NCBI GenBank assembly: GCA_005881215.1
Contig: VBDZ01000011.1
Location: forward strand, 1 to 33,625
Reading direction: 5' to 3'
DNA length: 33,625 bases
From: Chloroflexota bacterium
GTDB lineage: Bacteria; Chloroflexota; Dormibacteria; CF-121
Every line of letters begins with the position of its first letter. The stretch's first letter is position 1. The notes beneath the pieces were generated by a model, which was given only the letters and a program-made list of their open reading frames with translations, was not told where the DNA came from and searched no databases. Made by a program: the position numbers and the translations under genes. Of this stretch, positions 2,467-32,058 are shown in pieces.

Positions 2467-3357
2467 TTGAGCGACGCCGAGCGGCGCCGTGCGCTCTTCG
2501 TCGTCAACCCGGCCCTGCCGCGGACCGGTAGCGATTTCGGCAAGCGGCTTCTCGAGCTCGCCGGCGAGCTCGGGTGGGAGGCGATGGTGCTGGAGACGAG
2601 GGCCGGTCTCAATGTCGAGGCGATCGGGGCCGCCCTCGCCCGCCGCGATTTTCAGCTGGTGCTGGCGGCCGGCGGCGACGGCACCGTGGCCGAGGTGATG
2701 GCCGCAGCGCACCAGCGTGACCTGCCGATGGCGATCGTGCCGCTCGGCACAGCAAACATCGTGGCTCGAGAGCTCAAGCTGCCGGCCTCCTGGCGGGCCG
2801 CGACGCGCCGGGCCCTGGAACATTTTCCGCATACCCGCGCCGTCGACCTGGTTCGCGTCAACGACGGCTACTCCGCGCTGGCGGCGGGGATCGGCTTCGA
2901 CGCGACCGTCATGCGCTACACGCCCACGCTGCTCAAGTACTGGCTGGGCCGCGCCGCCTACTTTCTGGCCGGCGCCTGGTGGCTACCGCGCGCGCCCCTG
3001 TTCGACTGCACCATCCGGGCCGACGGCGAGGAGCTCCGGCTGACGGCGGTGGTGGTGCTGGTGGTAAACGCGGGCATGCTGGGCGCCGCGCCGTTCCGCT
3101 TCGGACCGGACATCGCCATCGACGACGGCTGGCTCGACCTGTGCGTCTACCGGCCGCGCAACGCGCGTGAGCGCGCCGGTGTGTTGTGGAGCCTGATTCG
3201 CCAGCGGCCCGACGGCGTCAGCATGCTGCAGCGCAAGGCGCGCTCGATCGAGATCAAGGCGCCCGAAGTCCAGTGGCACGAGGTCGACGGTGACGTCCAT
3301 CGCGGCAACGTGCTCCGGGCCCAGATTGTTCCGGGCGGGGTGCAGGTTGTCAGCTGA
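2467..3357 (+). CDS. Diacylglycerol kinase-like lipid kinase (DagK/YegS family)
   Basis: This 296-residue protein is of the diacylglycerol/sphingosine kinase family, which phosphorylates lipid hydroxyls at the membrane using ATP. The nucleotide-binding motif GGDGT is at residues 69-73, followed by the PLGTANIVARE segment with the expected Gly-Thr-Ala-Asn. The C-terminal beta-sandwich shows FRFGPDIAIDDGWLDL and HEVDGD, both family hallmarks. The substrate could be diacylglycerol (lipid recycling) or another lipid. The start is a TTG 19 bp after the CDF stop, so it is probably co-transcribed with the exporter. Its end overlaps the next gene by 11 nt. Confidence 0.87.
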   Translation: MSDAERRRALFVVNPALPRTGSDFGKRLLELAGELGWEAMVLETRAGLNVEAIGAALARRDFQLVLAAGGDGTVAEVMAAAHQRDLPMAIVPLGTANIVARELKLPASWRAATRRALEHFPHTRAVDLVRVNDGYSALAAGIGFDATVMRYTPTLLKYWLGRAAYFLAGAWWLPRAPLFDCTIRADGEELRLTAVVVLVVNAGMLGAAPFRFGPDIAIDDGWLDLCVYRPRNARERAGVLWSLIRQRPDGVSMLQRKARSIEIKAPEVQWHEVDGDVHRGNVLRAQIVPGGVQVVS

Positions 3358-3833: not shown

Positions 3834-6422
3834 TCAGGCCTTGCGCGCGAAGTAACGGTGAAAGGCCTCGATGATGTGGTCGAGGTCGTTGCGCTGCAGG
3901 CCCTGGTGACAGCCGATGGCAAACCCCCGCCGGTTGATGCGGGCCGCCACCGGGTACTGCGGTTCGAGGTCGCCAAAGAGTTTTCGATAGACGGGCTGAT
4001 TGATCAGCGGCATCAGGTGGCGGGTCTCGATGCCGGCCATCTCCAGATGGAGCAGGAGGGCTTCGCGGTCGACGCCATCCTTGACGATGACCGGGTACAT
4101 CATCCAGGCGTGCTCGGTGTCCTTGCGTACCGAGGGGAGTTGGAGATACCGGGTGAGATCGGCGAGGCCGCTGGTCAAGACGGCGGCGTTTTCCTGGCGG
4201 CGGCGGAGAATGTCCTGGTAGCGGGCGAGCTCGCCGACGCCGAGCGCTGCCTCCATCTCGGTCGCCCGGTAGCTGTAGCCGACGTGGATGAACGAAAAGC
4301 GGCGGGCCACCATCTGCTTGAGGACGTCTGTGTCCTGGGTATCGTCGTCATCGATCGACAGGTAGATGTTGTCGCGCCCGTGGTTCATCAGGCTCTTCAT
4401 CAGCGTCGCCAGGCCGTCGTCGTTGGTGGTGGCGAAGCCGCCGACGCCGGTCACGATCAGGTGCGCCACATAGCTGGAGAAGCAGGCCACGTCGCCCCAC
4501 GACCCGGTGGGCCGACCTTTGTAATGCACGAACATCGTTTCGCAAGAGTCCTCGATCACGCGCAGGTCGTTGGCCTTTGCGAAGGCCATGATCGGGTCCA
4601 TCTCACAAGGCTGGCCAAAGAGGTGCACCGGCATCACGGCGCGCGTCCGCCGGGTGAGATGCTTCGACAGCTGCGCCGGGTCGATGCCGACGTGGTCTGG
4701 CTCGACGTCGACGAAGACGGGCTTGAGGCCGTTCTGCAAGATGACATTGGAGCTGGCCACGAAGGTCACCGCCGGGACCAGCACCTCGTCGCCCGGTTTC
4801 CACTGGTACTGCTCCTTGAGCGCGTGCACCGCCACCTGCAGGGCGCTGGTCCCGCTGTTGCAGAAGATGGCGTACCGCCGATCGTGCAGCCGGGCGAATT
4901 CCTGTTCGAAGCGCTGGCTGTACTCGCCGTATGAGAGGCGGTTCTTGTTGAGGACGTCATTGACGTACTCGCGCTGGAGCGCGCTGATCTCGGCGGTACC
5001 CAGCCCGATCCGCGCGGGTGCGCCTTGCGGTGCCGGGCGCGCAAGGGGGGTGAGGGCGCCGGCACCCTTACGCATGATGGCGATCAGGTCGGTCGGTTGC
5101 CCGTCGGCCACGTAACCGCGCTGCCGCAACATCGTCAGCACGTTGGCGCGGTCGGTCCGGTTGAAGCCCAGGATGACGCGCCCCGCCGGGGCCAGCACCC
5201 GGTCGAGCTCATCCACCGCCGGCTCCTGTGCGGCCGGCTGCCCGGGGCTGCCCCAGAGGGCCAGGTCGAAGCTGCGGTCGGGAAACGGTAGCGACGTCAA
5301 TGAGCCGCGCAACAGCGGCCGGCCGAACCGTCGCGCCCAGCGGAGCTTGTTGAGCCGATCGTCGATGCCGACCGCCTCCGGCAGGCTGGCCAGCAGCGGG
5401 TCGGCGCCGCACTCGAGCGCCAGGGTTCGGTGGCTACCTTGCGACGCGTCCTCGATGGCGGCCATTCGCCGCCGCGCGCGCGCCCGCCGGAAGGGGTTAT
5501 ACGAACTCAACGACCAGCTCTCGTAATCGGCCGAGGCCGGCGCGTTGCGTAGCTGGCGCAGGCGCCAGAAGGTGCGCAGGTAGGAGACGACGAACTGCAG
5601 CAACATCACATGCGAGCGCCCCGTGAAGCGCGCCTTGTGATGCAACGGCACCTCGACCACCTGATGGCCATCCGCGACGATCCGCAGCAGGATGTCCTCC
5701 AGGACGTCGAAGTTGCGACCCTCGACGGCGATCGTCTTGATCACCGACTGGCGGTAGAGCCGAAAGCCGGACGACATGTCGCGGAACTGCACGCCCAGGC
5801 CGAAGCCGTACACCCGGTTCAGGATCCGGCTGAAGAGCTTGCGATAGATGGGCATGTCGGCCCGCCCGCCTTCGACGTAGCGGGATGCGATCACCAGGGC
5901 GGCATTGTCCCGCTCGGCCCACATCGCCTCCAGGAAGTCGGGATCGTGCTGATGGTCGCCGTCCATGGTGGCGACATACCGACCGCGGGCGACGCCGAAG
6001 CCCATCCGCAGCGCCCCACCGTAGCCGGGCTCGGTCTGGCGCGCCACCCGGGCTCCGCCCTCGGCCGCCACCCGGGGGGTGCCGTCGGTCGACCCGGCAT
6101 CGACGACGATCACCTCGTAGCTGAGGTGCAGCCGCTCGAGTACGGCCCGGATCCTCGGTAGCAGCGTGCGGAGGTTGTCAGCCTCGTTCCAGGCGAGCAC
6201 CATGATCGTCAGGTCGACCATCGGGGCGAGCACCGTGGCGGGCGCGTCGATCGCCGGCTCGGTCAGGTCCGGGATGCCGTCCACGACCGGGAAGCTGTGG
6301 CCGCCCAGGCAACGGGCGACGTCGGCCTCGACCACGCGAAGCCGAAGCCGGCAGCGCGGACAGGCGAGGTCCGCGGGCAGCGGATTGGGCTGCTCGAACC
6401 AAAGTGAATTTGCGAAGGTCAT
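3834..6422 (-). CDS. Four-module fusion: zinc ribbon, GT2 glycosyltransferase, methyltransferase-like domain, DegT/DnrJ-type PLP domain
   Basis: The product is 862 residues. Residues 20-56 form a Trm112-like zinc ribbon (C21PRC24, C38, H42). Residues 70-290 form a GT2 transferase of the dolichol-phosphate-mannose synthase type: VLAWNEADNL, VVDAGSTDGT, MDGDHQHDPD and the GG-ADMP acceptor region. Residues 330-450 resemble a class I methyltransferase, with SLTSLPFPDRSFDLALWG and LDRVLAPAGRVILGF, but the SAM loop is degenerate. Residues 475-862 form a DegT/DnrJ/EryC1/StrS fold: CNSGTSALQVAV, VPAVTFVASSNVI, VIEDSCET with PLP-pairing D625. At the Schiff-base position the sequence is SSYVAHLIVTG, giving His654 (codon 4461-4463) instead of lysine, as in the ColD and RfbH sugar 3-dehydratases. 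No cysteine cluster like that of RfbH is visible. I infer a surface-sugar enzyme whose donor and product are unknown. Confidence 0.88.
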   Translation of the reverse strand: MTFANSLWFEQPNPLPADLACPRCRLRLRVVEADVARCLGGHSFPVVDGIPDLTEPAIDAPATVLAPMVDLTIMVLAWNEADNLRTLLPRIRAVLERLHLSYEVIVVDAGSTDGTPRVAAEGGARVARQTEPGYGGALRMGFGVARGRYVATMDGDHQHDPDFLEAMWAERDNAALVIASRYVEGGRADMPIYRKLFSRILNRVYGFGLGVQFRDMSSGFRLYRQSVIKTIAVEGRNFDVLEDILLRIVADGHQVVEVPLHHKARFTGRSHVMLLQFVVSYLRTFWRLRQLRNAPASADYESWSLSSYNPFRRARARRRMAAIEDASQGSHRTLALECGADPLLASLPEAVGIDDRLNKLRWARRFGRPLLRGSLTSLPFPDRSFDLALWGSPGQPAAQEPAVDELDRVLAPAGRVILGFNRTDRANVLTMLRQRGYVADGQPTDLIAIMRKGAGALTPLARPAPQGAPARIGLGTAEISALQREYVNDVLNKNRLSYGEYSQRFEQEFARLHDRRYAIFCNSGTSALQVAVHALKEQYQWKPGDEVLVPAVTFVASSNVILQNGLKPVFVDVEPDHVGIDPAQLSKHLTRRTRAVMPVHLFGQPCEMDPIMAFAKANDLRVIEDSCETMFVHYKGRPTGSWGDVACFSSYVAHLIVTGVGGFATTNDDGLATLMKSLMNHGRDNIYLSIDDDDTQDTDVLKQMVARRFSFIHVGYSYRATEMEAALGVGELARYQDILRRRQENAAVLTSGLADLTRYLQLPSVRKDTEHAWMMYPVIVKDGVDREALLLHLEMAGIETRHLMPLINQPVYRKLFGDLEPQYPVAARINRRGFAIGCHQGLQRNDLDHIIEAFHRYFARKA

Positions 6423-6486: not shown

Positions 6487-7596
6487 GTGGCGCGGCCGCG
6501 TATCCTCGCCGTCGACGTCGGCACCGGGACTCAGGACATCCTGGTCTTCGAGGCGGGCACGGTGATCGAGAATGCGGTGCAACTGGTGATGCCGTCCCCC
6601 ACGGCGCTGCTCGCCGAGCGAGTCAAGCAGGCGACCGCCGATCGGGCGGACCTGTTCTTGAGCGGCGTGATGATGGGCGGGGGCCCGGACCAATGGGCGG
6701 TGGAGGCCCACCTGCGCGAAGGCCTGCGCGTCTATGCCACTCCCGATGCGGCACGAACCTTCGACGATGACCTGGACCGGGTCGAGGCGATGGGCGTGCG
6801 CGTGGTCGACACGCTCGAGGCGGCGAACGGCGCTCGCCGGCTGGAGATGCGCGACTTCTACGTCCCGGAGCTGATGGAGGCGCTACGGGCCTTCGGGGTC
6901 AGCACCGCCTTCGATGCCGTCGCGGCGGCCGTCTTCGACCACGGCGCCGCGCCGCCGGGTGTCAGCGACCGCCGGTTTCGTTTCGACTACCTGCGCGGTC
7001 AGGTCGAGCGCGGCATCGGGCTGGCGGGGTTCGGCTATCTCAGCGACGAGATCCCGTCGCGGATGACCCGCATGCAGGCGGTGGCGGACAGCTGGACGGG
7101 AGCAGCGCCACTCTTCCTGATGGATACGAGTCCCGCCGCGATCCTGGGTGCCCTCGATGATGGCCGGGTCGCCGACGCGCGGCGGCCCATGGTGGCCAAC
7201 CTCGGGAATTTCCACACGATCGCCACGCTCCTCGACGGCCAGCGGATCGTCGGACTCTTCGAGCACCATACCGGTGAGCTCAGCCGCGAAAAGCTCGAGG
7301 GCTACCTCGACGCGCTCGCCGCCGGCCAGCTTTCCAACCAGGCGATCTTCGACGACATGGGACACGGGGCGCTGGAGCTCGGACCGGTGACGGCGCCCCC
7401 CGAACTGTTCGCGGTCACCGGCCCGCGGCGCGGCTTGCTCGACGGCTCACGATTGCGTCCGCACCTGGCGGTGCCGCACGGCGACATGATGCTGGCCGGG
7501 TGTTTTGGATTGTTGCGGGCACTGACGGTCCGATTGCCCGAGTTTGCCCCCGCGATCGATAACGTGCTGAGACGAAGCGGATTCGAAACCGGCTGA
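6487..7596 (+). CDS. DUF1786 family protein (ASKHA-like fold)
   Basis: This 369-residue protein begins with ILAVDVGTGTQDILVFE, which resembles the phosphate-1 loop of actin/Hsp70/sugar-kinase folds and is the signature of DUF1786. A second region, MVANLGNFHTIATLLDG near residue 237, looks like a phosphate-2 type loop, and GLFEHHTGELS follows. The family has been labelled a putative pyruvate-formate-lyase activator, but I see no radical-SAM CxxxCxxC motif, so that label should not be used here. The substrate and role are unknown. It is transcribed divergently from the four-module fusion gene with a 64-bp gap. The GTG start is supported by the TAACCT box 6 nt upstream. Confidence 0.8.
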   Translation: MARPRILAVDVGTGTQDILVFEAGTVIENAVQLVMPSPTALLAERVKQATADRADLFLSGVMMGGGPDQWAVEAHLREGLRVYATPDAARTFDDDLDRVEAMGVRVVDTLEAANGARRLEMRDFYVPELMEALRAFGVSTAFDAVAAAVFDHGAAPPGVSDRRFRFDYLRGQVERGIGLAGFGYLSDEIPSRMTRMQAVADSWTGAAPLFLMDTSPAAILGALDDGRVADARRPMVANLGNFHTIATLLDGQRIVGLFEHHTGELSREKLEGYLDALAAGQLSNQAIFDDMGHGALELGPVTAPPELFAVTGPRRGLLDGSRLRPHLAVPHGDMMLAGCFGLLRALTVRLPEFAPAIDNVLRRSGFETG

Positions 7597-7613
7597 GGGG
7601 CGCGCGCCACCCG

Positions 7614-7619
7614 TAGAAT
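7614..7619 (+). promoter_or_regulatory. Putative -10 element (TAGAAT) for the MoxR-VWA operon
   Basis: TAGAAT lies 33 nt before the TTG start at 7653. A purine-rich AAAGAGG at 7640-7646 stands 6 nt before that start. Unlike most promoters here, this one would give a leader with a ribosome binding site. Confidence 0.4.
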
Positions 7620-7652
7620 CGGAAGGCGTCACCACATTCAAAGAGGTTTGTA

Positions 7653-9047
7653 TTGGAGCACCCCACGACCATCGCCCAGCTTCGACAGAGTGAGTACCGC
7701 GTGCTGCCGGTCAAGGAGGAGATGCGCAAGAACCTCGTTCGCAAGATCAAGGCGAGCGACGTCCTGTTCCCCGGCATCATCGGCTATGACGAGTCCGTTA
7801 TCCCGCAAGTGGAGAACGCCATCCTGTCGGGCCAGGACGTCGTCTTCCTCGGCGAGCGGGGCCAGGCGAAGAGCCGGCTGATCCGGTCGCTGGTCAGTTT
7901 GCTCGACGAGCAGGTCCCGATCATCGACGGCTGCGAAATCAACGACAGCCCGTATGCGCCCATCTGCCGGGCCTGCCGGGACCGGGTCGCGACCCAGGCC
8001 GACCGGGTGGGGGTGCGCTGGATTGCCCCCGACGAGCGCTACAGCGAGAAGCTGGCCACGCCCGATACGTCGATCGCCGACCTGATCGGCGAGGTCGATC
8101 CGATTCGGGTCGCCGAGGGAAAGTACCTGGCCGACGAGCTGACCATCCACTACGGCCTCGTACCGCGCACCAATCGCGGCATCTTCGCCATCAACGAGCT
8201 GCCCGACCTGGCGGAGCGGATCCAGGTAGGTTTGCTGAACCTGATCGAGGAACGCGACGTCCAGATTCGAGGTTTCAAGCTGCGCCTGCCGATTGATGTC
8301 TATGTGGTGGCCTCCGCGAACCCAGAGGACTACACCAACCGAGGGCGGATCATCACCCCGCTCAAGGATCGGTTCGGGGCGCAGATCCGCACCCACTATC
8401 CGCGCAACATCGAAGACGAGATCCGGATCGTGGAACAGGAGCGGACCGACTTCCAGGATCGAGAGCTCACGGTGATCATGCCCGACTTCATGAAAGAGAT
8501 CGTGGCCGAGGTGACCCAGCTCGCCCGCCGCAGCCCGAAGGTCAACCAGCGGTCGGGGGTGAGCGTCCGGATCTCGATCACAAACTACGAGAACCTCGCG
8601 TCGAACGCGTCTCGCCGCGCGCTGCGTACCGGCGAGACGGAAGCGGTGCCCCGGATCAGCGACCTGCCCTCGATCATTCCTTCGAGCGCCGGCAAGCTCG
8701 AGATGGAAACCTGGGAAGAGGGTGATGACCAAACGGTGCTGGAGAAGATCATCAAGACGGCGGTACTCAACGTCTATCGGCGCCACTTCGAGGCCAGCCA
8801 GTTCACCGAACTGGTCCAGCGGTTCGACGCCGGGCTCACCTTCGAGGTCTCGGAGGGCCAGCCGGCCGAGCGCTACATGACGATGCTGCGCGAGCTGCCT
8901 GGGATGGAGAAAGCTTTGAAAGGCCTGGGTCTCGACAAGCGACCCGCGCTGGCCGCCTCGGGGGTGGAGTTCGTGCTCGAGGGGCTGCATCTCAGCAAGC
9001 GGATCAACAAGACGGAAATGGACGGCGCCGCCATCTACGCCGGCTAG
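7653..9047 (+). CDS. MoxR/ChlI-like AAA+ ATPase
   Basis: This 464-residue AAA+ ATPase is of the magnesium-chelatase-I/MoxR clade, which remodels protein partners with a VWA protein. Walker A is GERGQAKS (residues 67-74). The Walker B position reads GIFAINELPDL, so the usual Asp-Glu is Asn-Glu. Sensor 1 is VVASANPEDY, and DRFGAQIRTHYP continues the AAA+ core. Three cysteines (C94, C105, C108) sit in the insert after Walker A. The insert is atypical for plain MoxR proteins and might bind metal. The TTG start is chosen for the AAAGAGG site upstream. The stop is directly followed by the ATG of the VWA gene, indicating one operon and one complex. Confidence 0.85.
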   Translation: MEHPTTIAQLRQSEYRVLPVKEEMRKNLVRKIKASDVLFPGIIGYDESVIPQVENAILSGQDVVFLGERGQAKSRLIRSLVSLLDEQVPIIDGCEINDSPYAPICRACRDRVATQADRVGVRWIAPDERYSEKLATPDTSIADLIGEVDPIRVAEGKYLADELTIHYGLVPRTNRGIFAINELPDLAERIQVGLLNLIEERDVQIRGFKLRLPIDVYVVASANPEDYTNRGRIITPLKDRFGAQIRTHYPRNIEDEIRIVEQERTDFQDRELTVIMPDFMKEIVAEVTQLARRSPKVNQRSGVSVRISITNYENLASNASRRALRTGETEAVPRISDLPSIIPSSAGKLEMETWEEGDDQTVLEKIIKTAVLNVYRRHFEASQFTELVQRFDAGLTFEVSEGQPAERYMTMLRELPGMEKALKGLGLDKRPALAASGVEFVLEGLHLSKRINKTEMDGAAIYAG

Positions 9048-11039
9048 ATGATCTCGCGCTCCAACCGCTACGAGCGCTGGGACGGATCGCAAGAGCCCTT
9101 CGGCCGCGACGCCGAGGACCTCTTCGACCGGCTCGCCGAAGACCTGTTCCAGGGTGGTGACTTCGACTACGCCCTGCACCGGTTGATGAGCCGAGGCTGG
9201 CGCGATCGACAGGGCCGCAAGCTGCCCGGCTTCGAGGAAATGCTCGAGCGGCTCCGCCAGAAGCGGCTGCAGCAGTTGAAGCGCTACAACCTGAACGACG
9301 TCTTCGGCAATATTCGCGAGCGGCTGAATGACATCCTCCGTCGCGAGCGCCAGGGGATCAACGAGCGCCTGGAGCAGGCGCCAGAGAGCGCGAAGCGAGT
9401 GCTGCAGCGGATCACCAAGAAGAAGCTGCAGGAGCTCGACCGCTTACCCGAGGACGTCGGCGGGGCCATCCGGGAGCTCAACGACTACGAGTTCATGGAC
9501 GAGGGCGCCGCCCAGGCCTTCCAGAAGCTGATGGAGGAGCTCAAGCAGCAGGTCTCGCAGACCTACTTCAAGAACATGACCCGTACCATGCAGCAACTCC
9601 GCCCCGAGCAGCTGGGCGAAATCAAGGAGATGCTCAGGGCCCTCAACCAGATGCTGCGTGATCGGCTGGAGGGCAAGCCGCCGAAATTCGAGCAGTTCAT
9701 GCAACGCTTCGGGCATTTCTTCGGTCCCAATCCGCCGAAGACGCTCGACGAGCTGATCCAGCACCTGGAGAGGCAGATGGCGCAGATGGAGTCCCTGATG
9801 CAGTCCCTCTCGCCCGAGATGCGCCAGCAGATGCAGGACCTACTCGAATCGACACTCAACGATCCGGAGCTGCAGGAGCAGATGGCGGAGCTGGCGGCGC
9901 AGCTGGAGCTGATGTCGCCTCGTCCCGGACTCGGCAGCCGCTACGCCTTCTATGGCTCGGAATCGCTGCCGCTGCAGGAAGCGCTCTCCTTGATGGAGCG
10001 GCTGCAGGGGATCGAAGACCTCGAATCGGCCCTGCGCGAGGGCTACCAGGGACGCCAACTGACGCCCGAGCAATCGGCGCAGCTGCAGCAACTGCTGGGG
10101 TCGGACGCCCGCCAGGCCGCCGACCAGATGAGTGAATTGGCCTCGCAGCTGGAGAAGAAGGGCTACGTGCAACGCGGCCGGCGCGGCATGGAGCTGACCC
10201 CGCGCGGGATGCGCCGCATCGGGCAGAAGGCGCTGCGCGATCTGTATACCCGATTGAAGCGCGACCGCTTCGGCGATCACCCGATCAGCGTGCGCGGCCT
10301 GGGGTCGGAGCGGTCTGACGAGACCAAGGTCTACGAGTTCGGGGACGCGTTCAATCTCAATGTCGAGCAGACCTTGATGAACGCCCTGCGTCGTGAAGGG
10401 CCACGAGAGCCGATCCGGCTCAAGACCGACGACTTCGAGGTCTACCGCTCGGAGTTCAGCGCCCAGTCCGCGACCGTGCTGATGATCGACATGAGCCGGT
10501 CGATGCCGCTGCGGGGCTACTTCTACGCCGCGAAGAAAGTGGCGCTGGCCCTGGATGCCCTGATCCGGAGCCAGTTCCCGCGCGATTTTCTCCAGGTGAT
10601 CGCCTTCAGCGATTACGCCCGTCCGGTCAAGTCGCACCAGCTGGCGGAGCTGACCTACAACGAGTCCATCTACGGCACCAACATCCAGCACGGGTTGATG
10701 CTGGCCCGCCAGTTCCTCAACCGGCACAAGACCGGGAACAAGCAGGTCATCATCGTGACCGACGGCGAGCCCACCGCCCACATGGAAGGTCAGCAGGCGG
10801 TCTTCTTCTACCCTCCGCTGCCGGAGACCTTTCAGAAGACGCTGCTCGAGGTGCAGCGCTGTACCCGCGAGCACATCGTGATCAACACCTTCATGCTGGA
10901 CAACGACTATCACCTGGTCTCGTTCGTCAAGCAGATGACCCGGATGAACGGGGGGCGGGCCTTCTTCGCCAGCGCCGATCGGCTGGGCGATTACGTTTTG
11001 CTCGACTACGTCGACCGGAAGCGCAAAGCCAGCCGCTGA
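9048..11039 (+). CDS. VWA-domain protein, partner of the MoxR-like ATPase
   Basis: The product is 663 residues. The C-terminal third is a von Willebrand A domain with a complete metal-ion-dependent adhesion site: D481MSRS485, a Thr in YGTNIQHGL, and Asp in VTDGEP. The N-terminal 400 residues are charged and helical, rich in Leu, Gln, Met and Glu, with several likely coiled-coil segments around residues 65-290 and no membrane segment. VWA/MoxR pairs act as chaperone-like modules that insert metals or assemble enzyme complexes. The client is not identifiable from this locus. The ATG follows the ATPase stop codon with no gap. Confidence 0.85.
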   Translation: MISRSNRYERWDGSQEPFGRDAEDLFDRLAEDLFQGGDFDYALHRLMSRGWRDRQGRKLPGFEEMLERLRQKRLQQLKRYNLNDVFGNIRERLNDILRRERQGINERLEQAPESAKRVLQRITKKKLQELDRLPEDVGGAIRELNDYEFMDEGAAQAFQKLMEELKQQVSQTYFKNMTRTMQQLRPEQLGEIKEMLRALNQMLRDRLEGKPPKFEQFMQRFGHFFGPNPPKTLDELIQHLERQMAQMESLMQSLSPEMRQQMQDLLESTLNDPELQEQMAELAAQLELMSPRPGLGSRYAFYGSESLPLQEALSLMERLQGIEDLESALREGYQGRQLTPEQSAQLQQLLGSDARQAADQMSELASQLEKKGYVQRGRRGMELTPRGMRRIGQKALRDLYTRLKRDRFGDHPISVRGLGSERSDETKVYEFGDAFNLNVEQTLMNALRREGPREPIRLKTDDFEVYRSEFSAQSATVLMIDMSRSMPLRGYFYAAKKVALALDALIRSQFPRDFLQVIAFSDYARPVKSHQLAELTYNESIYGTNIQHGLMLARQFLNRHKTGNKQVIIVTDGEPTAHMEGQQAVFFYPPLPETFQKTLLEVQRCTREHIVINTFMLDNDYHLVSFVKQMTRMNGGRAFFASADRLGDYVLLDYVDRKRKASR

Positions 11040-11947: not shown

Positions 11948-12647
11948 CGCCCGACGCGACGGTGCAGCGCGGCAACAGCCAGCGGTAGACGACGTCGGGT
12001 TGTCGCTTCCCGGTCTCCCGCAGCACCCAGCCGATCGCCTTACGAATGAAGAACTCGCGTTCCGCCAGCATGGCGTCGGCGTAGCGCGCGAATCGCGGAA
12101 AGTCGCCCTGGCCGCGCCGCAGTGGCCGGAGCAGCGCCAGCATCGCGGCGCGCCGGATCCAGAAGTCGTCGTCCCGCGCCCAGCAGTCCAGCCTCTGCGC
12201 GAGGTGTGAGGAGCGTTGCAGCAAGGGCCCGACGATCACGATGGCCAGCTCGTCGACGAAGGCCCACGTCTTCGACTCGCGGATCAAGCGCTCCAAAACG
12301 CCAATGTCGGCCGGCCGCAGCAGAGCCTGGAACTCCTCCAACAAGAGGACGGCGGTCATCCGGGTTTCGAAGACCTGGCGGCGCCAGAGGGCCGAAACCA
12401 CTTTCAGCAACTGGCCTCGGCCGAGCGATGGATGCTCGCGCGTGATGGCGCGAACCATCTGGCGCATGGCCGGCAGCGTCGCGCCGATAAACTCGAGGTC
12501 GCTCTTCAAATAGGCCTTCTCGGCGACCGCGCGCCGCGGATCCCGCTGACGCCGCAGGTTCGCCTCGATCTGTGACGCCAGGATCGAGGCGGACGCCTTA
12601 GTGGAGCTTGGGGAGGACCTGCTTGCCGAAGACGTCGATCCACTCAC
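11835..12647 (-). CDS. AlkD-like DNA alkylation repair protein (HEAT-like repeats)
   Basis: The AlkD family consists of HEAT-like repeat glycosylases that excise bulky or cationic alkylated bases without base flipping. Supporting segments are YLKSDLEFIGATLPAMRQ near the N-terminus, KTWAFVDELA and FWIRRAAMLALLRP in the middle, and EFFIRKAIGWVLRETGK near the C-terminus. The start is uncertain. Family-like sequence begins at ILASQIEANL, where only a CTG (12579-12581) is available, while the nearest GTG is at 12645-12647 inside the oxidoreductase gene. I give the GTG but the Ser-rich first 20 residues are probably not native. The 3' end overlaps the convergent methyltransferase by 113 nt. Confidence 0.75.
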   Translation of the reverse strand: MSGSTSSASRSSPSSTKASASILASQIEANLRRQRDPRRAVAEKAYLKSDLEFIGATLPAMRQMVRAITREHPSLGRGQLLKVVSALWRRQVFETRMTAVLLLEEFQALLRPADIGVLERLIRESKTWAFVDELAIVIVGPLLQRSSHLAQRLDCWARDDDFWIRRAAMLALLRPLRRGQGDFPRFARYADAMLAEREFFIRKAIGWVLRETGKRQPDVVYRWLLPRCTVASGVTVREAVKYLSPPQRAALLAAYRPQRRSAPVSGRAPR

Positions 12648-13578
12648 GCTGGTTCCGCCCGACGTTGTGGAGGTAAACGCGGTCGAAACCGAGATCGATG
12701 AACTTCTGAATCTCGCGACGATGCGCGTCGACATCTGACGAAATCAGCATCCGGCCCTTGAAATCGTCGGGTCGAACGATCTTCGCCATCTGCTCGAAGT
12801 CATAGGGTGAGCGGATGTCCGCCTTGGGGAATTTCATCCCACCATTGGGCCACTGCTGCAGGGCATTGCGCATGGCTTCCTCATCGGTCGGCGCCCACGA
12901 GAGATGGAGTTGGAGGATCTTGTGCAGCGTCGCTGGATCCCGGCCGGCCTCGCGTGCGCCTTTCTCGAATCGCTCGAAGACCGTGCCGATCTTCTCTTCC
13001 GGAGCGCCGACCGTGATGATGCCATCGCACAGTCGCCCCGTCTTCTCCGCGGTAACCGGCCCGGCGGTGGCCACATAGATCGGTGGGGGCTGCTCCGGCA
13101 TGGTCCACAGCCGCATTGTCTCCATCTTGTAGTAGGCGCCCGCGTGCTTGACGTCTTTGCCCGTGAACAGCTTGCGAATGATGTCGATCGACTCGAACAT
13201 GCGGTTGATGCGCTCTGCCACCTCGGGCCAGTAGCCGGCGACGATGTGCTCGTTGAGCGCTTCGCCGGATCCCAGGCCCAGCCAGAACCGGCCCGGGTAC
13301 ATCGCCGCCATGGTGGCCGCGGCCTGGGCGATGATCGCCGGGTGTGAGCGGAACGATGGGCAGGTCACCCCCGGCCCGATATCACCCCGGGTGTGCTCGG
13401 CCGCGGCCGTCATGAACGACCAAACGAAGGACGCGTTGCCCTGCTGCGGGGTCCACGGCTGGACATGGTCGGCAGCCATTACTCCGGAGAATCCGGCGGC
13501 CTCGGCCTGCTCGCAGAAACCAACCAGCTCACGCGGAGGGAATTGCTCCAACATCGCCGCATAGCCGATGTGCGACAT
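12598..13578 (-). CDS. LLM-class F420-dependent oxidoreductase, FGD-like
   Basis: This 326-residue luciferase-like monooxygenase-fold enzyme is close in layout to F420-dependent glucose-6-phosphate dehydrogenase (FGD). Residues aligning with FGD's active site are present: D37-H38 and W42 in AADHVQPW, and E106 in GLGSGEALNE. The non-prolyl cis-peptide neighbourhood fits TCPSFRSHPAIIAQ. The phosphate-binding residues of FGD cannot be confirmed, so the substrate may not be glucose 6-phosphate. The cofD-cofC-cofE genes lie about 1.1 kb away on the other strand and would supply the cofactor. The AlkD-like gene continues downstream on the same strand with overlapping ends. Confidence 0.85.
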   Translation of the reverse strand: MSHIGYAAMLEQFPPRELVGFCEQAEAAGFSGVMAADHVQPWTPQQGNASFVWSFMTAAAEHTRGDIGPGVTCPSFRSHPAIIAQAAATMAAMYPGRFWLGLGSGEALNEHIVAGYWPEVAERINRMFESIDIIRKLFTGKDVKHAGAYYKMETMRLWTMPEQPPPIYVATAGPVTAEKTGRLCDGIITVGAPEEKIGTVFERFEKGAREAGRDPATLHKILQLHLSWAPTDEEAMRNALQQWPNGGMKFPKADIRSPYDFEQMAKIVRPDDFKGRMLISSDVDAHRREIQKFIDLGFDRVYLHNVGRNQREWIDVFGKQVLPKLH

Positions 13579-13593
13579 CGCGGCCGTCCCGGG

Positions 13594-13848
13594 CTAGCGG
13601 TTGAAGCGGCTGGTGGTCGACATCGTGTCGGGGCGCGGCCGGGCGAACGACGCGACCACGGCCCCGGCGGCCAGGATGACCAGCGCCAGCACGAAATGCT
13701 TCAACCGGAAATGCGGCCCGGGCAGGATCAAGCTCTCGCTCGAGGTGCGGACGACGAGGTAGAAGACCGCCGCCACGAGTCCAACGAAGAACAGCACCAG
13801 CCCGACCCAGAAGGCCATCGGGTTGTTTTGAAGCGGGTTGTCTTGCAT
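13594..13848 (-). CDS. Small two-helix membrane protein
   Basis: The 84-residue product has two hydrophobic stretches, about residues 12-34 (FWVGLVLFFVGLVAAVFYLV) and 51-66 (FVLALVILAAGAVVAS), and a polar N-terminus. I do not recognise a family. A strong Shine-Dalgarno AAGGAGG lies 5 nt before the ATG, one of the clearest in the window. It sits 17 bp downstream of uppP on the same strand and is probably co-transcribed, which hints at an envelope-associated role but proves nothing. Confidence 0.7.
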   Translation of the reverse strand: MQDNPLQNNPMAFWVGLVLFFVGLVAAVFYLVVRTSSESLILPGPHFRLKHFVLALVILAAGAVVASFARPRPDTMSTTSRFNR

Positions 13849-13865
13849 TCGTCCTCCTTGAGGCG

Positions 13866-14708
13866 CTAACGGCTGAGCAGGATCAGGGAGAGGATCCCGA
13901 ACGCCGCGCAGTAAATCGCAAACGGATCAAGCCGTCCCACTCGAAAGTATCGCATGAGGTATGCCACGCTCACGAAGGCGGCGGCGCCGGACACGACACC
14001 CGCGAGCAAGTAGACGGGCAGATGCGGCAGCGCGGTGGACGTGAACAAATCGGGAATCTTGAGGACGCCCGCCCCCAGGATGACCGGGGTGGCGAGCAGG
14101 AAGGCGAATCGGGCCGCGGCCTCGTGGGTCAGATTGGCGAGCAGGCCCGCGACCATGCTGCTGCCGGACCGGGAGATCCCGGGCAACAGCGCCAGGATCT
14201 GCGCCGAGCCGATGCCGACCGCGGACCGCACGCGGAGCCGGTCGAGCGGCGTGCGCCCCTCCTCGGCCGCGATGGCGTGACGCCGCAGGCGTTCGCCCCC
14301 GAACATGATCGCGCCGTTGATGATCAGGAATGCGGCCGCCGCCCGTGGACTGGCGAAGAGGGCTTGCACCTGCTTCTGGAACAGGGCGCCGACCAGCCCC
14401 ACCGGGATGGTGCCCAGAATCAAGCGCCAGCCGAGGCGCTCGTCGGGGGTGCCCTGCAGCTGGCCGGCGATCACGCTGCGCAGCACCGCCCGAACGATGG
14501 CCAGCCAGTCGCGCCAGAAATAGATCACCAGTGCGATGGCGGTGCCGACGTGGAGCAAGACCACGAAGGCGAGGAAGGTGGGGTCGGCCTGATTGACGTT
14601 CCAGTGAAGCAGGGAGGGAAGGATCACGGTGTGCCCCAGGCTGCTGACCGGGAAGAGTTCCGTGACGCCCTGCAGCAATGCCAATACGAGGGCCTGGAAC
14701 AGCGACAT
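13866..14708 (-). CDS. uppP: Undecaprenyl-diphosphatase UppP (BacA)
   Basis: This 280-residue polytopic membrane enzyme dephosphorylates undecaprenyl diphosphate to recycle the lipid carrier of peptidoglycan and other wall polymers. Both family signatures are present: QGVTELFPVSSLGH with E17, S22-S23 and H26, and LLPGISRSGSSM with the catalytic R180. Length and about seven to eight hydrophobic segments fit the family. Some BacA proteins confer bacitracin tolerance. The ATG is only 19 bp from the divergent cofD start, so its promoter must overlap the cofD promoter or coding sequence. A weak AGGAAA precedes the start. Confidence 0.93.
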   Translation of the reverse strand: MSLFQALVLALLQGVTELFPVSSLGHTVILPSLLHWNVNQADPTFLAFVVLLHVGTAIALVIYFWRDWLAIVRAVLRSVIAGQLQGTPDERLGWRLILGTIPVGLVGALFQKQVQALFASPRAAAAFLIINGAIMFGGERLRRHAIAAEEGRTPLDRLRVRSAVGIGSAQILALLPGISRSGSSMVAGLLANLTHEAAARFAFLLATPVILGAGVLKIPDLFTSTALPHLPVYLLAGVVSGAAAFVSVAYLMRYFRVGRLDPFAIYCAAFGILSLILLSR

Positions 14709-14715
14709 CGTTTCC

Positions 14716-14721
14716 TATGAT
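14716..14721 (+). promoter_or_regulatory. Putative -10 element (TATGAT) of the cofD operon
   Basis: TATGAT ends 6 nt before the cofD ATG, so the mRNA should be leaderless. It lies in the 19-bp gap between uppP and cofD. No clear -35 hexamer is visible at 16-18 nt spacing. Confidence 0.5.
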
Positions 14722-14727
14722 GCTGTA

Positions 14728-15678
14728 ATGAGCGCGGGGCCCGTCGTCGTCCTGGCCGGCGGCGTCGGCGCGGCCCGCTTCCTGCGAGGCTTGGTGCGGG
14801 TGGTCCCAGCGGACGACCTGGTCGTCATCGGCAACACCGGTGACGACATGTGGTGGCAGGGGCTGTACATCGCGCCCGACCTGGATACCGTGACCTACTG
14901 GCTGGCCGGGGTGGCGGATGAATCGAGGGGCTGGGGCCTCCGGGGAGATACCTTCACGGCGCAGGCGGCCCTGGCCGACCTGACATCCGAGGCCTGGTTC
15001 CAGCTGGGCGACCGCGACCTGGCCACGCACCTGTATCGAACCGGTCGGTTGAGTCGCGGGGTGCCGCTGCATCAGGTCACGGCTGAGCTTGCTGAGCGGT
15101 TCGGGGTCCGCAGCCGGATCCTGCCGATGAGCGACGACCCAGTGGAGACCCGGCTCAAGACCGCGGCCGGCGACCTGCATTTCCAGGAATACTTCGTCCG
15201 CGAGCACTGGCGCCCGCTGGTGCGCGAGATCTACTGGACCGGCATCGAGGCGGCCCGGCCGGCCCCGGGCATCGCGGAGGCGGTGGCGGCGGCGCGGGCG
15301 GTCCTGATCGCCCCCAGCAACCCGGCCATCAGTATCGGACCCATTCTTCGGGTGCCCGGAGTGCGCAGGCTGCTCACCGCCGTCCGGGGTCGCACCGTCG
15401 CCGTCTCGCCGCTGATCCAGGGCCGCGCGGTAAAAGGGCCGACGGTCGAGCTGATGCGGGCCGAGGGAATCCGGCCGGATGCCCTGGGGGTGGCGCAGCT
15501 CTACCGCGACCTCGCGGCCGGCTTCGTGCTCGACGCGGCCGATGCGGCGCTGGCTCCGGCAATCGCGGCCATGGGCTACCGCGTCGCCGTGCGTCCCACG
15601 CTGCTCGACGACATCGCGGCAGCCCGCGAGGTGGCGGTCGCCGCGTTGGACCTCTTGCGCCAGCCGGCGGCCGCGTGA
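14728..15678 (+). CDS. cofD: 2-phospho-L-lactate transferase CofD/FbiA
   Basis: This 316-residue enzyme transfers the phospholactyl or phosphoenolpyruvyl group from its GDP-activated form to the deazaflavin Fo, making F420-0 or dehydro-F420-0. The N-terminal VVVLAGGVGAARFLRGL is the family's glycine-rich motif. It is followed by IGNTGDD and GDRDLATHLYR, and later by APSNPAISIGPIL with the conserved Ser-Asn-Pro. The frame remains open to 14629 inside uppP, but the family sequence and the TATGAT box support the ATG at 14728. Its stop overlaps the cofC start (GTGA). The enzymes making Fo itself (CofG/CofH or FbiC) are not in this window. Confidence 0.94.
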   Translation: MSAGPVVVLAGGVGAARFLRGLVRVVPADDLVVIGNTGDDMWWQGLYIAPDLDTVTYWLAGVADESRGWGLRGDTFTAQAALADLTSEAWFQLGDRDLATHLYRTGRLSRGVPLHQVTAELAERFGVRSRILPMSDDPVETRLKTAAGDLHFQEYFVREHWRPLVREIYWTGIEAARPAPGIAEAVAAARAVLIAPSNPAISIGPILRVPGVRRLLTAVRGRTVAVSPLIQGRAVKGPTVELMRAEGIRPDALGVAQLYRDLAAGFVLDAADAALAPAIAAMGYRVAVRPTLLDDIAAAREVAVAALDLLRQPAAA

Positions 15679-27701: not shown

Positions 27702-28817
27702 ATGAGCGGAGTTCGGGTGCTGGTTGGGACGAAAAAAGGCGCGTTCGTGCTGACATCAGATGGCAAGCGCCAGGGTTGGGAGGTCAACGGGCCCCACTTC
27801 GGTGGGTGGGAGCTGTATCACATCAAGGGTTCACCGGCCGATCCGAACCGTCTCTATGCCTCGCAGTCGACCGGCTGGTTCGGCCAGCTCATCCAGCGCT
27901 CCAATGACGGCGGCAAGACCTGGGAGCCGGTGGGCAACAAGTTCGTCTACGAAGGCGAGGCCGGCACCCACAAGTGGTATGACGGCACGTCGCGGCCGTT
28001 CGAGTTCAAGCGCGTCTGGCATCTGGAGCCTTCCCTCGATGATCCGGACACGGTCTACGCCGGGATCGAGGATGCCGCCATCTTCCGCACCACCGACGGC
28101 GGCCAGAACTGGCAGGAGCTTCCGGGCCTGCGCCAGCACCAGACCGCGGCTGACTGGGCGCCGGGGGCCGGCGGCATGTGCCTCCACACCATCATCCAGG
28201 ATCCGAAAAATCCGAAGCGGCTCTTTAGCGCCATCTCGGCGGCCGGCGCCTTTCGCAGCGACGATGCCGGCGAGACCTGGCAGCCGATCAACCGCGGCCT
28301 TCACTCGGAGGGCATCCCCGACCCGGATGCCCCGGTCGGCCACTGCGTGCATCGGATCGCCCTTCACCCGTCGCGTCCCGACGTCCTCTATATGCAAAAG
28401 CACTGGGACGTGATGCGAACCGACGATGCAGGCGGCTCGTGGCGTGAGATCAGCGGCAACCTGCCGACCGACTTCGGGTTTCCCATCGACGTGCACGCGC
28501 ACGAGCCGGAGACGGTCTACGTGGTTCCGATCAAGAGCGACTCCGAGCACTACCCGCCGGACGGCAAACTGCGTGTCTACCGCAGCCGGTCCGGGGGTGA
28601 TGAATGGGAGCCGCTCACCCGGGGGCTGCCGCAACAGGACGTCTACCTCAACGTGCTGCGCGACGCGATGTCGGTCGATTCGCTCGATCCCTGTGGGATC
28701 TACTTTGGGACGAGCGGCGGCCAGGTATACGCATCGGCCGACGCCGGGGACAGCTGGACGCCCATCGTCCGAGACCTTCCGGCGGTTCTGTCGGTGGAGG
28801 TGCAAACCCTGCCGTGA
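27702..28817 (+). CDS. BNR/Asp-box beta-propeller protein (sialidase-like repeats)
   Basis: The 371-residue product carries about six Asp-box repeats of the S-x-D-x-G-x-x-W type: SNDGGKTW (67-74), TTDGGQNW (130-137), [23 protein letters not shown] and SADAGDSW (345-352). These mark a beta-propeller like those of sialidases, VPS10 proteins and photosystem-stability factor HCF136. The Arg triad and Tyr of true sialidases are not evident, and there is no signal peptide, so a cytoplasmic binding or scaffold role is more likely than glycosidase activity. A GAGGAGG site supports the start. The stop overlaps the MoaD-like start (GTGA). Confidence 0.85.
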
Positions 28818-29110
28818 TTCGAGTCGTCCTGCCGACGCACCTGCGCCGGCTGGCGCAGGTGGGCGGCGAGGTGCAGCTCGAGGTGCAGGGTCAGGCGACG
28901 CAACAGTCGGTGCTGGACGCCCTGGAGGCCAGCTACCCGATGCTGCGCGGGACGATCCGGGACCAGGTCTCGCACCAGCGTCGGGCGTTCATCCGGTTTT
29001 TCGCCTGCGAGCAGGACCTGTCCCTCGACTCGCCGGATGCCCCGTTGCCCGACGCGGTTGCGACCGGGGCGGAGCCACTCCTCGTGGTTGGCGCCATGGC
29101 TGGCGGCTAA
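28814..29110 (+). CDS. MoaD/ThiS-like ubiquitin-fold small protein
   Basis: The 98-residue product has a beta-grasp layout, with [14 protein letters not shown] at the start, [17 protein letters not shown] as the central helix, and [11 protein letters not shown]. It ends exactly in VVGAMAGG. A terminal Gly-Gly is the feature that lets MoaD, ThiS and bacterial ubiquitin-like proteins be adenylated and thiocarboxylated or conjugated. The frame is open far upstream inside the propeller gene. The GTG at 28814, sharing 4 nt with the propeller stop, gives a normal MoaD-like N-terminus. There is no activating E1-like enzyme in the window, and molybdopterin synthesis is already covered by the MoaD-MoaE fusion, so a different role is likely. 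Confidence 0.85.
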
Positions 29111-29150
29111 GGTCCGGGCGCAAATCCTATGGATCTCGGTCCGCCCGGGC

Positions 29151-29178
29151 TTGCCTTTGCACAAAACGGCGCTACGCT
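29151..29178 (+). promoter_or_regulatory. Promoter of the first LAL regulator (TTGCCT-N16-TACGCT)
   Basis: A -35-like TTGCCT (29151-29156) and a -10-like TACGCT (29173-29178) are separated by 16 nt. The ATG follows 6 nt after the -10 box with no ribosome binding site. It is one of the few places here where both hexamers can be proposed. Confidence 0.45.
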
Positions 29179-29184
29179 GGGCCA

Positions 29185-32058
29185 ATGGCTTCGGATTTTG
29201 TTGGACGAGGGGTCGAGCTGGCCCGGCTCGAAGCCGTCTGCTCGCGAGCGAAGCGTGAGGGCAGGCCAGCCGCGGCGCTGATAACCGGACTTCCGGGGGC
29301 GGGCAAGACGCGCCTGCTTGCCGAGTTGCGCAGTCGGCAACAAGGCCAACAAGATGTCACCGCCTTGAGCATCGTGGGGTATGAGACCGGAACGCAGGTG
29401 CCGCTGGCTGCCGCCGGCGAGCTGCTCCACGCGCTAGTAAAGGTGCCCGGCGTAGGCGCACGGCTCGAGGCGGCTCTCTTCGGAGCCAGCCCCGCTGAGG
29501 ATCGTCCGCTCGAACCCCTGCGTATCTTCGAGGCGGCGCATCGCTCGTTGCTTGGGCTCCCCGGCATGACCCTGCTCTTCATCGACGATCTCCAGTGGGT
29601 CGATGAGCTCTCGGTTGCCCTCTGTTCGTACCTCGTTCGTTCAGCGGATGGGGAAGGCAAAGCTGTTGCCTTAATCGCGGCGAGCCGCCCGGCGGGTGCC
29701 GGCTCGGCTTTCTACGACTCCATGACGGCGGACCTGGGGTCCGACCGCGCCGCCACGATGGTGCTTGGCCCACTCGAACGCGATCAAGCCGTTCGCCTTG
29801 CCCGGCAGCTCGCCCCGCACCTGGCCGCAGAGCGAGCCACGGAGCTCTGGTCGCTGGCGCAAGGCTCACCGTTCTGGCTCGGTGTCCTCGCTCGGAGCGC
29901 GGATGAGCGCGATCTCACCGACTACCTGGTCGCACGAGAGCGTCGGCTTTCGCGCGACTCGAGGCGGTTACTCGGCGTTCTCGCCGTCGCTGGGCGCCCG
30001 CTGCCTTTGCCAGAGGTCGACGCGATCGTTGCCTGGCATGAGACGCGCACCGAGCAGGCGGTCGCCGAGCTTGAACGGTCGGGCCTCGGGGTTGTGGAAG
30101 GAATCTCCGTTCGTCTGGCACATGACCTGATCCGCTCATGGGCCGAAGCGCAACTACCCTCAGCCAGCAGGCGAGAGCTTCATGTGAACATTGCCGGCTG
30201 GCTGGACAAGCAGGCGAACGGTGATCTTCAGCTTCTGCTGGAGGCGCTCGTCCATCGTCGTGAGGCTGGACTCGATGTAGGCGATCTGGCGCTCCGCATC
30301 CTTCAGTCGCCGCGGCGTCGACTCCTCGGACGCGAGGGGTTGAAGGATCTCTCTCAAGTCGCTGACGCAGGAGGGTTCTCGGGACCGCTCGCCGCCGCCC
30401 TCCACGATCGCGTGGCTCTGCTTGCCAGTGAGCTGGGTGAGCACCGCGTCGCGATGGAGCGCTGGATCCAGCTGGCGGCAAACGTTACCGACCCTTCGCT
30501 CGTGGCGAAGTGCTACCTGGGCGCCTCACGCGCTGCTTCGCGGATTGTTGAGCGGAGGGAAGAGGCGCTGCCGCTGCTGAATCGCGCTCGAAGTCAGAAG
30601 ACCGCTGATCCGGCTATCACTGTTGAGATCGGGGCGCACCGTGCCAGCCTGCTCCGACTGCTGGCGCACCGGACAAACGACGCTCGACAGGCTGCGGAGC
30701 AAGCGGTGCGTGACGCACGTACGCTTTGGGCGCATCGGGATCCCAGCGAGATCAGCGCTCGGGAACGAGAGGCTTACACATTAGCGCTGCAGGCTGTTTT
30801 TGATGCCGCGGTTATGGAAGAAGACACGTCTGAAATGTTGCGCATCTCGGAGGAGATGGCGCAGGTGGCCCGTGGTTCGGAGGAGCCGGCGATCTCCGCG
30901 GCGCTCAATATGTCGACTACGCTGTGGGATCTCGGCCAGATGGGCGAGGCCGTCGACCATGCGCGACGCGCTTGGCTGCATTCACATGAGCAGATGCTGC
31001 CGATGCTCACCCTCGCGGCAGGCTCGGTCCTTGCCCCAGAACTGATCGACGGAGGGCGCTGGAGCGAGGCGGAAGAGGTTACGTCGGAGTGTGCGGAACT
31101 CGAGCGCCGAATCGGAGGTGCCGTAGAGCGCCTGGCTATGGCGAAGGTGGCGACACACTCGATCCATGAGCTGCGGCATCTGATCTGGTTCTCGCGCGGG
31201 GACTGGCGGGACGCCGCGTCCAGCGTCGAGCGCGAGGTCGGTCTCCAGCCTGATCCGCACTACCGGCTACACCTTCACTGGGCCTTGGTCGTCTGGCTGG
31301 CGAGGTGCGGCAGGGGAACGCGAAGTGTGGACTTCGACCGCCACGCCGCAGCGGCCAGAGATGACGCCGTTGCCGCCGGTTGCCCGAGATGCGCCCGCGA
31401 GACGGCACTCAAATTGGCCGAAGGTCTGGCTCGCCTGGGACGCGTGGATGATGCCCAGAAGACACTGGCAACGTGGGACGAGTATGGGCGTCCAGCAAAC
31501 GTGCGCGACCAGCTCTGGCGCCGGCACGTCGGCGCCCTGATCGGGCTTGCGAAGCACGAGGTCTCCACCAGCATTTCGGAGCTCGAGACGGTCGTGGCCG
31601 ACAGGATGAGGTTAGGACTGATGGCCGGGTTGCTTTGGGCCCGGCTCGATCTTGCCGCTGCGCTCCTCGGCCGTGAGCCAAGCAGGGCCGCAAACGAGTT
31701 CCGACAGGCGGGAAATGAAGCGAGCACGGCCGGTGCAACGACCGAGCAGCGTCTCGCTGAACTCGGGCTGCGCCGGCTCGGCGTCCGCACGTGGCGGCGT
31801 GGTCGTGCATCGAGTGCCGAGGCCGGGCTGGACAAGCTGAGTGAGCGAGAACGGCAGATCGCGATACTCGTCGCGGCTGGCAACACCAATCCCGAAATCG
31901 CGGACAGGCTCTTCCTTTCACGTAAAACCATCGAGCGGCACGTTTCCAACGTTCTCGCGAGGACCGGCGCCCGCAACCGCACCGACCTCGCCCGACTGGT
32001 CAGCCGGTTGACGTCACCGTCGGGGTCGGTGCCTGGGGGAGTCCCGGGCCGGGGCTGA
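29185..32058 (+). CDS. LAL-type ATPase regulator with LuxR C-terminal HTH
   Basis: This 957-residue protein belongs to the large ATP-binding LuxR (LAL/MalT-like) regulators. Walker A is ITGLPGAGKTRLL (K41), Walker B is LLFIDDLQWVDE (D134-D135), and the STAND-like AAA_16 domain occupies roughly the first 350 residues. The middle 500 residues are helical, consistent with TPR-like repeats. A GerE/LuxR HTH ends the protein from about residue 885: LSERERQIAILVAAGNTNPE and LFLSRKTIERHVSNVLART. Such proteins sense a ligand, bind ATP and activate transcription. The true start is ATG 29185 at MASDFVGRG; the frame is open much further upstream but that part is antisense to or overlaps other genes. Targets are unknown. 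Confidence 0.9.
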   Translation: MASDFVGRGVELARLEAVCSRAKREGRPAAALITGLPGAGKTRLLAELRSRQQGQQDVTALSIVGYETGTQVPLAAAGELLHALVKVPGVGARLEAALFGASPAEDRPLEPLRIFEAAHRSLLGLPGMTLLFIDDLQWVDELSVALCSYLVRSADGEGKAVALIAASRPAGAGSAFYDSMTADLGSDRAATMVLGPLERDQAVRLARQLAPHLAAERATELWSLAQGSPFWLGVLARSADERDLTDYLVARERRLSRDSRRLLGVLAVAGRPLPLPEVDAIVAWHETRTEQAVAELERSGLGVVEGISVRLAHDLIRSWAEAQLPSASRRELHVNIAGWLDKQANGDLQLLLEALVHRREAGLDVGDLALRILQSPRRRLLGREGLKDLSQVADAGGFSGPLAAALHDRVALLASELGEHRVAMERWIQLAANVTDPSLVAKCYLGASRAASRIVERREEALPLLNRARSQKTADPAITVEIGAHRASLLRLLAHRTNDARQAAEQAVRDARTLWAHRDPSEISAREREAYTLALQAVFDAAVMEEDTSEMLRISEEMAQVARGSEEPAISAALNMSTTLWDLGQMGEAVDHARRAWLHSHEQMLPMLTLAAGSVLAPELIDGGRWSEAEEVTSECAELERRIGGAVERLAMAKVATHSIHELRHLIWFSRGDWRDAASSVEREVGLQPDPHYRLHLHWALVVWLARCGRGTRSVDFDRHAAAARDDAVAAGCPRCARETALKLAEGLARLGRVDDAQKTLATWDEYGRPANVRDQLWRRHVGALIGLAKHEVSTSISELETVVADRMRLGLMAGLLWARLDLAAALLGREPSRAANEFRQAGNEASTAGATTEQRLAELGLRRLGVRTWRRGRASSAEAGLDKLSERERQIAILVAAGNTNPEIADRLFLSRKTIERHVSNVLARTGARNRTDLARLVSRLTSPSGSVPGGVPGRG

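Follow-up and report, generated by a model that had tools for sequence, protein, structure and literature searches.

The 862-aa protein encoded on the minus strand at positions 3834-6422 of contig VBDZ01000011.1 from a Chloroflexota bacterium (assembly GCA_005881215.1) probably combines a ColD-like sugar C3 dehydratase with a GT2 glycosyltransferase of the polyprenyl-phosphate type, with a methyltransferase remnant as a bridge between them. The window, i.e. the whole stretch of DNA that was analysed, comprises positions 1 to 33,625 of this contig, and the reaction is predicted from sequence and structure comparisons. More tentatively, and we consider this unlikely, the single polypeptide may make a 3-deoxygenated GDP-sugar that its own GT2 domain passes to polyprenyl-phosphate, with the dehydratase forming a separate, Fe-S-free branch in Chloroflexota and Armatimonadota. 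The enzyme class itself is known and the branch is little-known. A fusion of this kind, with GT2 and ColD-like dehydratase in one protein, was not found described in the open-access literature that we searched.

Domain layout and recurrence of the fusion

The gene is a single frame without interruption, has an ATG start and encodes, in this order, a zinc ribbon, a GT2 domain, a degenerate methyltransferase and a ColD-like DegT-fold domain. Pfam searches with the protein matched GT2 (PF00535) at residues 72-230 (E 4e-26), Methyltransf_11 weakly at residues 344-418 (25 bits) and DegT_DnrJ_EryC1 at residues 481-854 (E 5e-93). We delimited the GT2 domain to residues 66-295 (5538-6227), the degenerate class I methyltransferase to residues 330-450 (5073-5435) and the DegT-fold domain to residues 471-862 (3837-5012), all on the minus strand. 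The DegT-fold domain is predicted to be a ColD-type 3-dehydratase from Pfam, tree, model and Foldseek results. The Trm112-like zinc ribbon (residues 18-55; 6258-6371, minus strand) was below Pfam significance in the fusion protein itself. It was recognized by its retained C-x2-C...C-x3-H pattern and by alignment with the free-standing sister gene L063, which passes the Trm112p model (27.9 bits, cut-off 22); the match was marginal in L069. The four-module chain of the preliminary description is thus borne out by the open reading frame, Pfam and alignment with sister genes.

The preliminary description had proposed a search for the same domain order. We scanned the genomes of 84,980 species (one genome per species) and found two more full-length fusions, both in Chloroflexota MAGs (L002, 90% identity; L003, 76% identity). 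From Armatimonadota, the same scan yielded L004 (58%), a free-standing relative of the DegT part. It also gave numerous distant DegT proteins, all of them with Lys in the Schiff-base column. A class-level search returned two genomes that are apparently the same as those of L002 and L003 (G055 and G053, respectively) and a fourth fusion species (G052), the protein of which (L043) was ~57% identical to ours in the GT2 domain and 78% in the DegT domain. The fusion is therefore present in the genomes of four species, all of them MAGs with 75-90% completeness. His occupies the Schiff-base column in all four proteins, and none of the three further species has Lys. The three further genes (L002, L003 and L043) contain no stops and are similar in length. 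An assembly or frame artefact is ruled out by this recurrence of the open fusion in three further species. A phage or viral origin was also rejected, as there was no match among viral contigs and phage matches were distant only.

A search at phylum level added free-standing DegT relatives with identities of 58% (L046/L049), 49% (L047/L050) and 41% (L048/L051), all of which have His. The free-standing His relatives belong to Armatimonadota and two other Chloroflexota. Sampling the classes of G128 and G355 produced no further close members of this free-standing clade.

No glycan cluster surrounds the fusion gene in the window. A YegS/diacylglycerol-kinase-like gene (2467-3357, plus strand) and a DUF1786 gene (6487-7596, plus strand) serve as synteny markers on either side of it; the other neighbours are genes for cation efflux and for a PH-like protein, and an ATPase/VWA pair. 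Further along the window, genes for a Luciferase-like monooxygenase, BacA (undecaprenyl-pyrophosphate phosphatase) and CofD lie at 12598-15678, where F420 metabolism probably adjoins an undecaprenyl-phosphate recycling enzyme. The frame at 28426-32058 (plus strand) encodes 1210 aa with AAA_16 and LuxR-type (GerE) domains. Its first part overlaps, in a different frame, the gene before it (27702-28817); its true start probably lies further downstream.

The Schiff-base site and class assignment

At the column of the Schiff-base lysine the fusion protein has His654 (CAC, 4461-4463, minus strand), which aligns to ColD His188 and RfbH His220. The Asp that pairs with the PLP ring is retained as Asp625 (GAC, 4548-4550, minus strand), equivalent to ColD Asp159. 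Codon reading and alignment thus agree with the preliminary description, which had claimed both residues. Column 654 is Lys in 13/13 distant aminotransferases that we compared, and His in all seven members of the clade formed by the fusion proteins and their close relatives (the query clade), three of which are free-standing. Asp625, Ser649 and an insert loop (residues 684-706; 4305-4373, minus strand; located by alignments) are retained alongside the invariant His. This loop is common to 3-dehydratases and mostly missing in aminotransferases.

We calculated a maximum-likelihood tree of 25 proteins (12 with His and 13 with Lys), including RfbH from Salmonella and Streptomyces and ColD from E. 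coli O55. All 12 His proteins, namely ColD, RfbH, the query clade and two Fe-S types, fell into one group apart from the 13 Lys aminotransferases (100/99). Within it the seven members of the query clade formed their own group (100/98), distinct from ColD and RfbH. ColD, on a long branch, joined RfbH (98/96) and not the query clade, and the two Fe-S types paired together. As the tree separates the query clade from ColD, we do not file the DegT domain of the fusion as a strict ColD. At columns A551, A653, R683, F711, F834 and G837 the fusion protein has the His-type residue, found in 11-12 of the 12 His rows versus 0-2 of the 13 Lys rows.

Among solved structures, GDP-perosamine synthase, E1 and ColD are nearest in sequence. 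A full-length model was unreliable in its N-terminal half (mean pLDDT 64), and we used a model of the DegT domain alone (pLDDT 91, pTM 0.89). Modelling of this part had been suggested in the preliminary description, and Foldseek matched the model to E1 (TM 0.88 by query length), perosamine synthase (0.86) and ColD (0.85).

Candidate substrate and proposed reaction

Gene order around free-standing relatives bears on the substrate. In L050, GMD (7226-8245) is followed by a fucose-synthase-like gene (8248-9207) and the His enzyme (9207-10436). The His enzyme of L004 (7971-9188) lies 11 bases before GMD (9200-10198); two epimerase-like frames come next, and the second of them enters a masked stretch. 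Both GMD proteins score above the curated cut-off (517.6 bits in L050 and 541 bits in L004). In E. coli O55, colD adjoins a gene of the GDP-L-fucose-synthase family, and gmd is located elsewhere in the same cluster. The fusion gene itself does not lie beside GMD, which is found elsewhere in the genome of the window: contig C152 (G000:C152:34851-37868, L057) carries an RMD-like gene, ManC and GMD in a row near the contig end, where 'RMD-like' is a reading of the sequence with no curated model naming it. A fucose-synthase/ColC-like gene was not found in this genome beyond SDRs at 26-29% identity. Because of the GMD operons of the relatives, the likeness to the ColD cluster and the presence of GMD and ManC in the fusion's own genome, we infer that GDP-4-keto-6-deoxymannose would be the likeliest substrate of its dehydratase.

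Members of the family with and without the fusion have GMD, 15 of 18 genomes in total, so that GDP-4-keto-6-deoxymannose is probably a general precursor there. GMD was not detected in G052, a 90%-complete genome that bears the fusion. Being family-wide and missing in G052, the presence of GMD was dropped as fusion-specific support. Alternatively, the same mechanism could act on CDP-, dTDP- or UDP-4-keto-6-deoxyglucose, which the GT2 domain would then use as well. The missing GMD of G052 would fit this reading, as would the other 4,6-dehydratase-like SDRs that each of the four genomes with the fusion has. We consider it improbable given the GMD genes in the operons of free-standing relatives; moreover, GDP-perosamine synthase, the nearest relative of solved structure, acts on GDP-4-keto-6-deoxymannose, and G052 may simply be incomplete.

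In the reaction that we propose, the DegT domain would be a PMP-dependent nucleotide-sugar C3 dehydratase. The substrate would be an NDP-4-keto-6-deoxyhexose, of which GDP-4-keto-6-deoxy-D-mannose is the likeliest, and PMP would condense with its C4 ketone. His654 would then take a proton from the cofactor, whereupon the C3 hydroxyl would leave, and the dehydration product would hydrolyse to a 4-keto-3,6-dideoxy sugar. A transamination, with glutamate for example as the amino donor, would regenerate PMP in place of an Fe-S electron relay. The GT2 domain probably takes a GDP-sugar, and the methyltransferase domain, having lost its SAM-binding motif, is probably a mere spacer or scaffold. Three enzymes of PMP-dependent 3-deoxygenation are well characterised, E1, ColD and SpnQ; in the chemistry of ColD and E1 a His acts as acid/base, E1 uses an Fe-S relay and ColD regenerates PMP with glutamate (PMC8987622).

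The cysteines of RfbH bear on the choice between an Fe-S relay and ColD-like chemistry. C251, C253 and C261 of RfbH lie in the insert loop, which has no Cys in the fusion protein (N685, Y687 and T695 at these positions) and lacks these cysteines throughout the seven-member query clade, as judged by alignment. The remaining one, C193 of RfbH, has its counterpart in C627, but a Cys at this position is also found in ColD, which holds no cluster. Three of the four [2Fe-2S] ligands are therefore missing, in keeping with the preliminary description, which had seen no RfbH-type cysteine cluster, and this loss makes ColD-like chemistry the likelier one. A 3-dehydratase like RfbH/E1 or SpnQ would instead have its intermediate reduced by electrons from a partner reductase, not hydrolysed. 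RfbH is indeed the nearest curated model (NF011936, 247.9 bits), the C-terminal half of L004 scores best with E1 (107 bits with RfbH/E1 versus 56 with ColD) and C627 is in place. However, the RfbH cut-off of 423 bits is not reached, and the clade-wide loss of three cysteines together with the Cys of cluster-free ColD speaks against such a relay, which we regard as quite improbable. As it lacks the full set of cysteines and scores below the curated threshold, the DegT domain of the fusion is not filed as RfbH.

Two RfbH-like His enzymes (L051:9270-10541 and L075:5992-7194) have four loop cysteines spaced C-x-C-x2-C-x8-C and no equivalent of E1 C193. They may represent an alternative mode of Fe-S cluster binding among 3-dehydratases. 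The L075 enzyme adjoins a gene annotated as GDP-L-fucose synthase.

We compared the fusion gene with L002 and obtained dN/dS values of 0.053 for the DegT domain, 0.063 for the GT2 domain and 0.183 for the methyltransferase. The DegT and GT2 domains are under strong purifying selection, and the methyltransferase is under looser selection. The decay of the adjoining methyltransferase and the loss of Lys could be read as signs that the DegT domain is a pseudoenzyme, which lost catalysis with the lysine and became a structural or regulatory partner of GT2. The low dN/dS of the domain (0.05) argues against this reading, as do the invariant His, the retained 3-dehydratase columns, Asp625, Ser649 and loop, and the location of free-standing relatives in GMD operons; we consider it very improbable. 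Even less probable is a GDP-perosamine-synthase-like aminotransferase with another Schiff-base lysine, which would accord with the top sequence and fold match and with K536, the only clade-invariant lysine, but K536 belongs to the helix that follows the phosphate-binding SGT motif and lies off the Schiff-base strand and column, the tree excludes every Lys row, and the insert loop and G837 are of the dehydratase type.

Neither a fused homologue with Lys nor another Schiff-base lysine was seen. That the change from Lys to His marks a ColD/RfbH-like enzyme, as first proposed, is supported by the tree, the class columns, the insert loop, the GMD operons of the relatives and purifying selection.

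Origin of the fusion and comparison with known systems

The best PDB relatives of the GT2 domain are dolichol-phosphate mannose synthase (83 bits) and ArnC, and its acidic DxD-type motif (MDGD) is retained. The equivalog cut-offs for AglJ and ArnC were not reached by the fusion protein. Judging from Pfam, these relatives and dN/dS, the domain resembles glycosyltransferases of the polyprenyl-phosphate type, and we predict this type for it. At L051:9270-11299, a GT2 gene resembling dolichol-phosphate mannose synthase lies ~60 bases downstream of an Fe-S-type 3-dehydratase gene. This pairing, as separate genes, is a hint from an independent source at an association of GT2 with 3-dehydratases.

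Sister species of the same genus have, at the same locus, a free zinc ribbon-GT2-methyltransferase gene of ~497 aa (L063, L065, L064 and L070). It adjoins the YegS-like kinase/PH-like pair in all four and also lies beside the DUF1786 gene in L063 and L065. The methyltransferases of these sisters are intact (VLDVGCGSS ... SEVIEH). Alignment with them revealed that the GCGSS and SEVIEH motifs are gone from the fusion, that the SAM-binding VLDVGCGSS has become TLALECGADP and that ~30 residues after the core are deleted. The Methyltransf_11 score is 25 bits in the fusion versus 65 bits in L063. From the free and intact genes at sister loci we infer that a ColD-like gene was joined to such a gene and that the methyltransferase decayed.

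In G052 the conserved locus (C137) is occupied by L069, an unfused GT2 gene whose methyltransferase has decayed, and the fusion (L061) lies on another contig (C172). L069 branches inside the fusion group, so that either the DegT part was lost after duplication or the decay preceded the fusion. The presence of both genes suggests a duplication in which the DegT part was lost.

The 3-deoxygenation that PMP enzymes carry out is unusual chemistry. The set of E1, ColD and SpnQ is extended here by a further well-supported 3-dehydratase branch, which lacks the Fe-S cysteines and comes from phyla with little glycobiology, and which helps to sort 3-dehydratases from the many proteins annotated merely as DegT aminotransferases. 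It is usually difficult to assign a glycosyltransferase partner to a 3-deoxysugar, and the fusion points to a candidate; in the sister genomes, the step from free gene to fusion can be seen.

Like ColD of E. coli O55 (PDB 2gms, 3b8x), the query dehydratase has the DegT fold, the His (His188 in ColD), the Asp (Asp159) and an insert loop without a cysteine cluster, and its free-standing relatives are located with GMD and fucose-synthase-like genes. In contrast to free-standing ColD, it is fused to GT2 and a decayed methyltransferase, shares ~26% identity with ColD in a structural alignment and lies on a separate branch of the tree. With RfbH/E1 (PDB 3bcx), the closest 3-dehydratase by bit score, it has in common the DegT fold, His220 and the PMP-type 3-dehydratase columns; it differs in the three missing [2Fe-2S] cysteines, a score under the curated cut-off and a gene context in which no CDP-sugar genes were seen. 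GDP-perosamine synthase (PDB 3bn1, 3dr4) is the top sequence and fold match and likely shares the substrate, but is an aminotransferase with a catalytic Lys and no insert loop. The sister genes L063, L065, L070 and L064 match the fusion in N-terminal architecture and chromosomal neighbourhood, and differ from it by an intact methyltransferase and the absence of a DegT domain.
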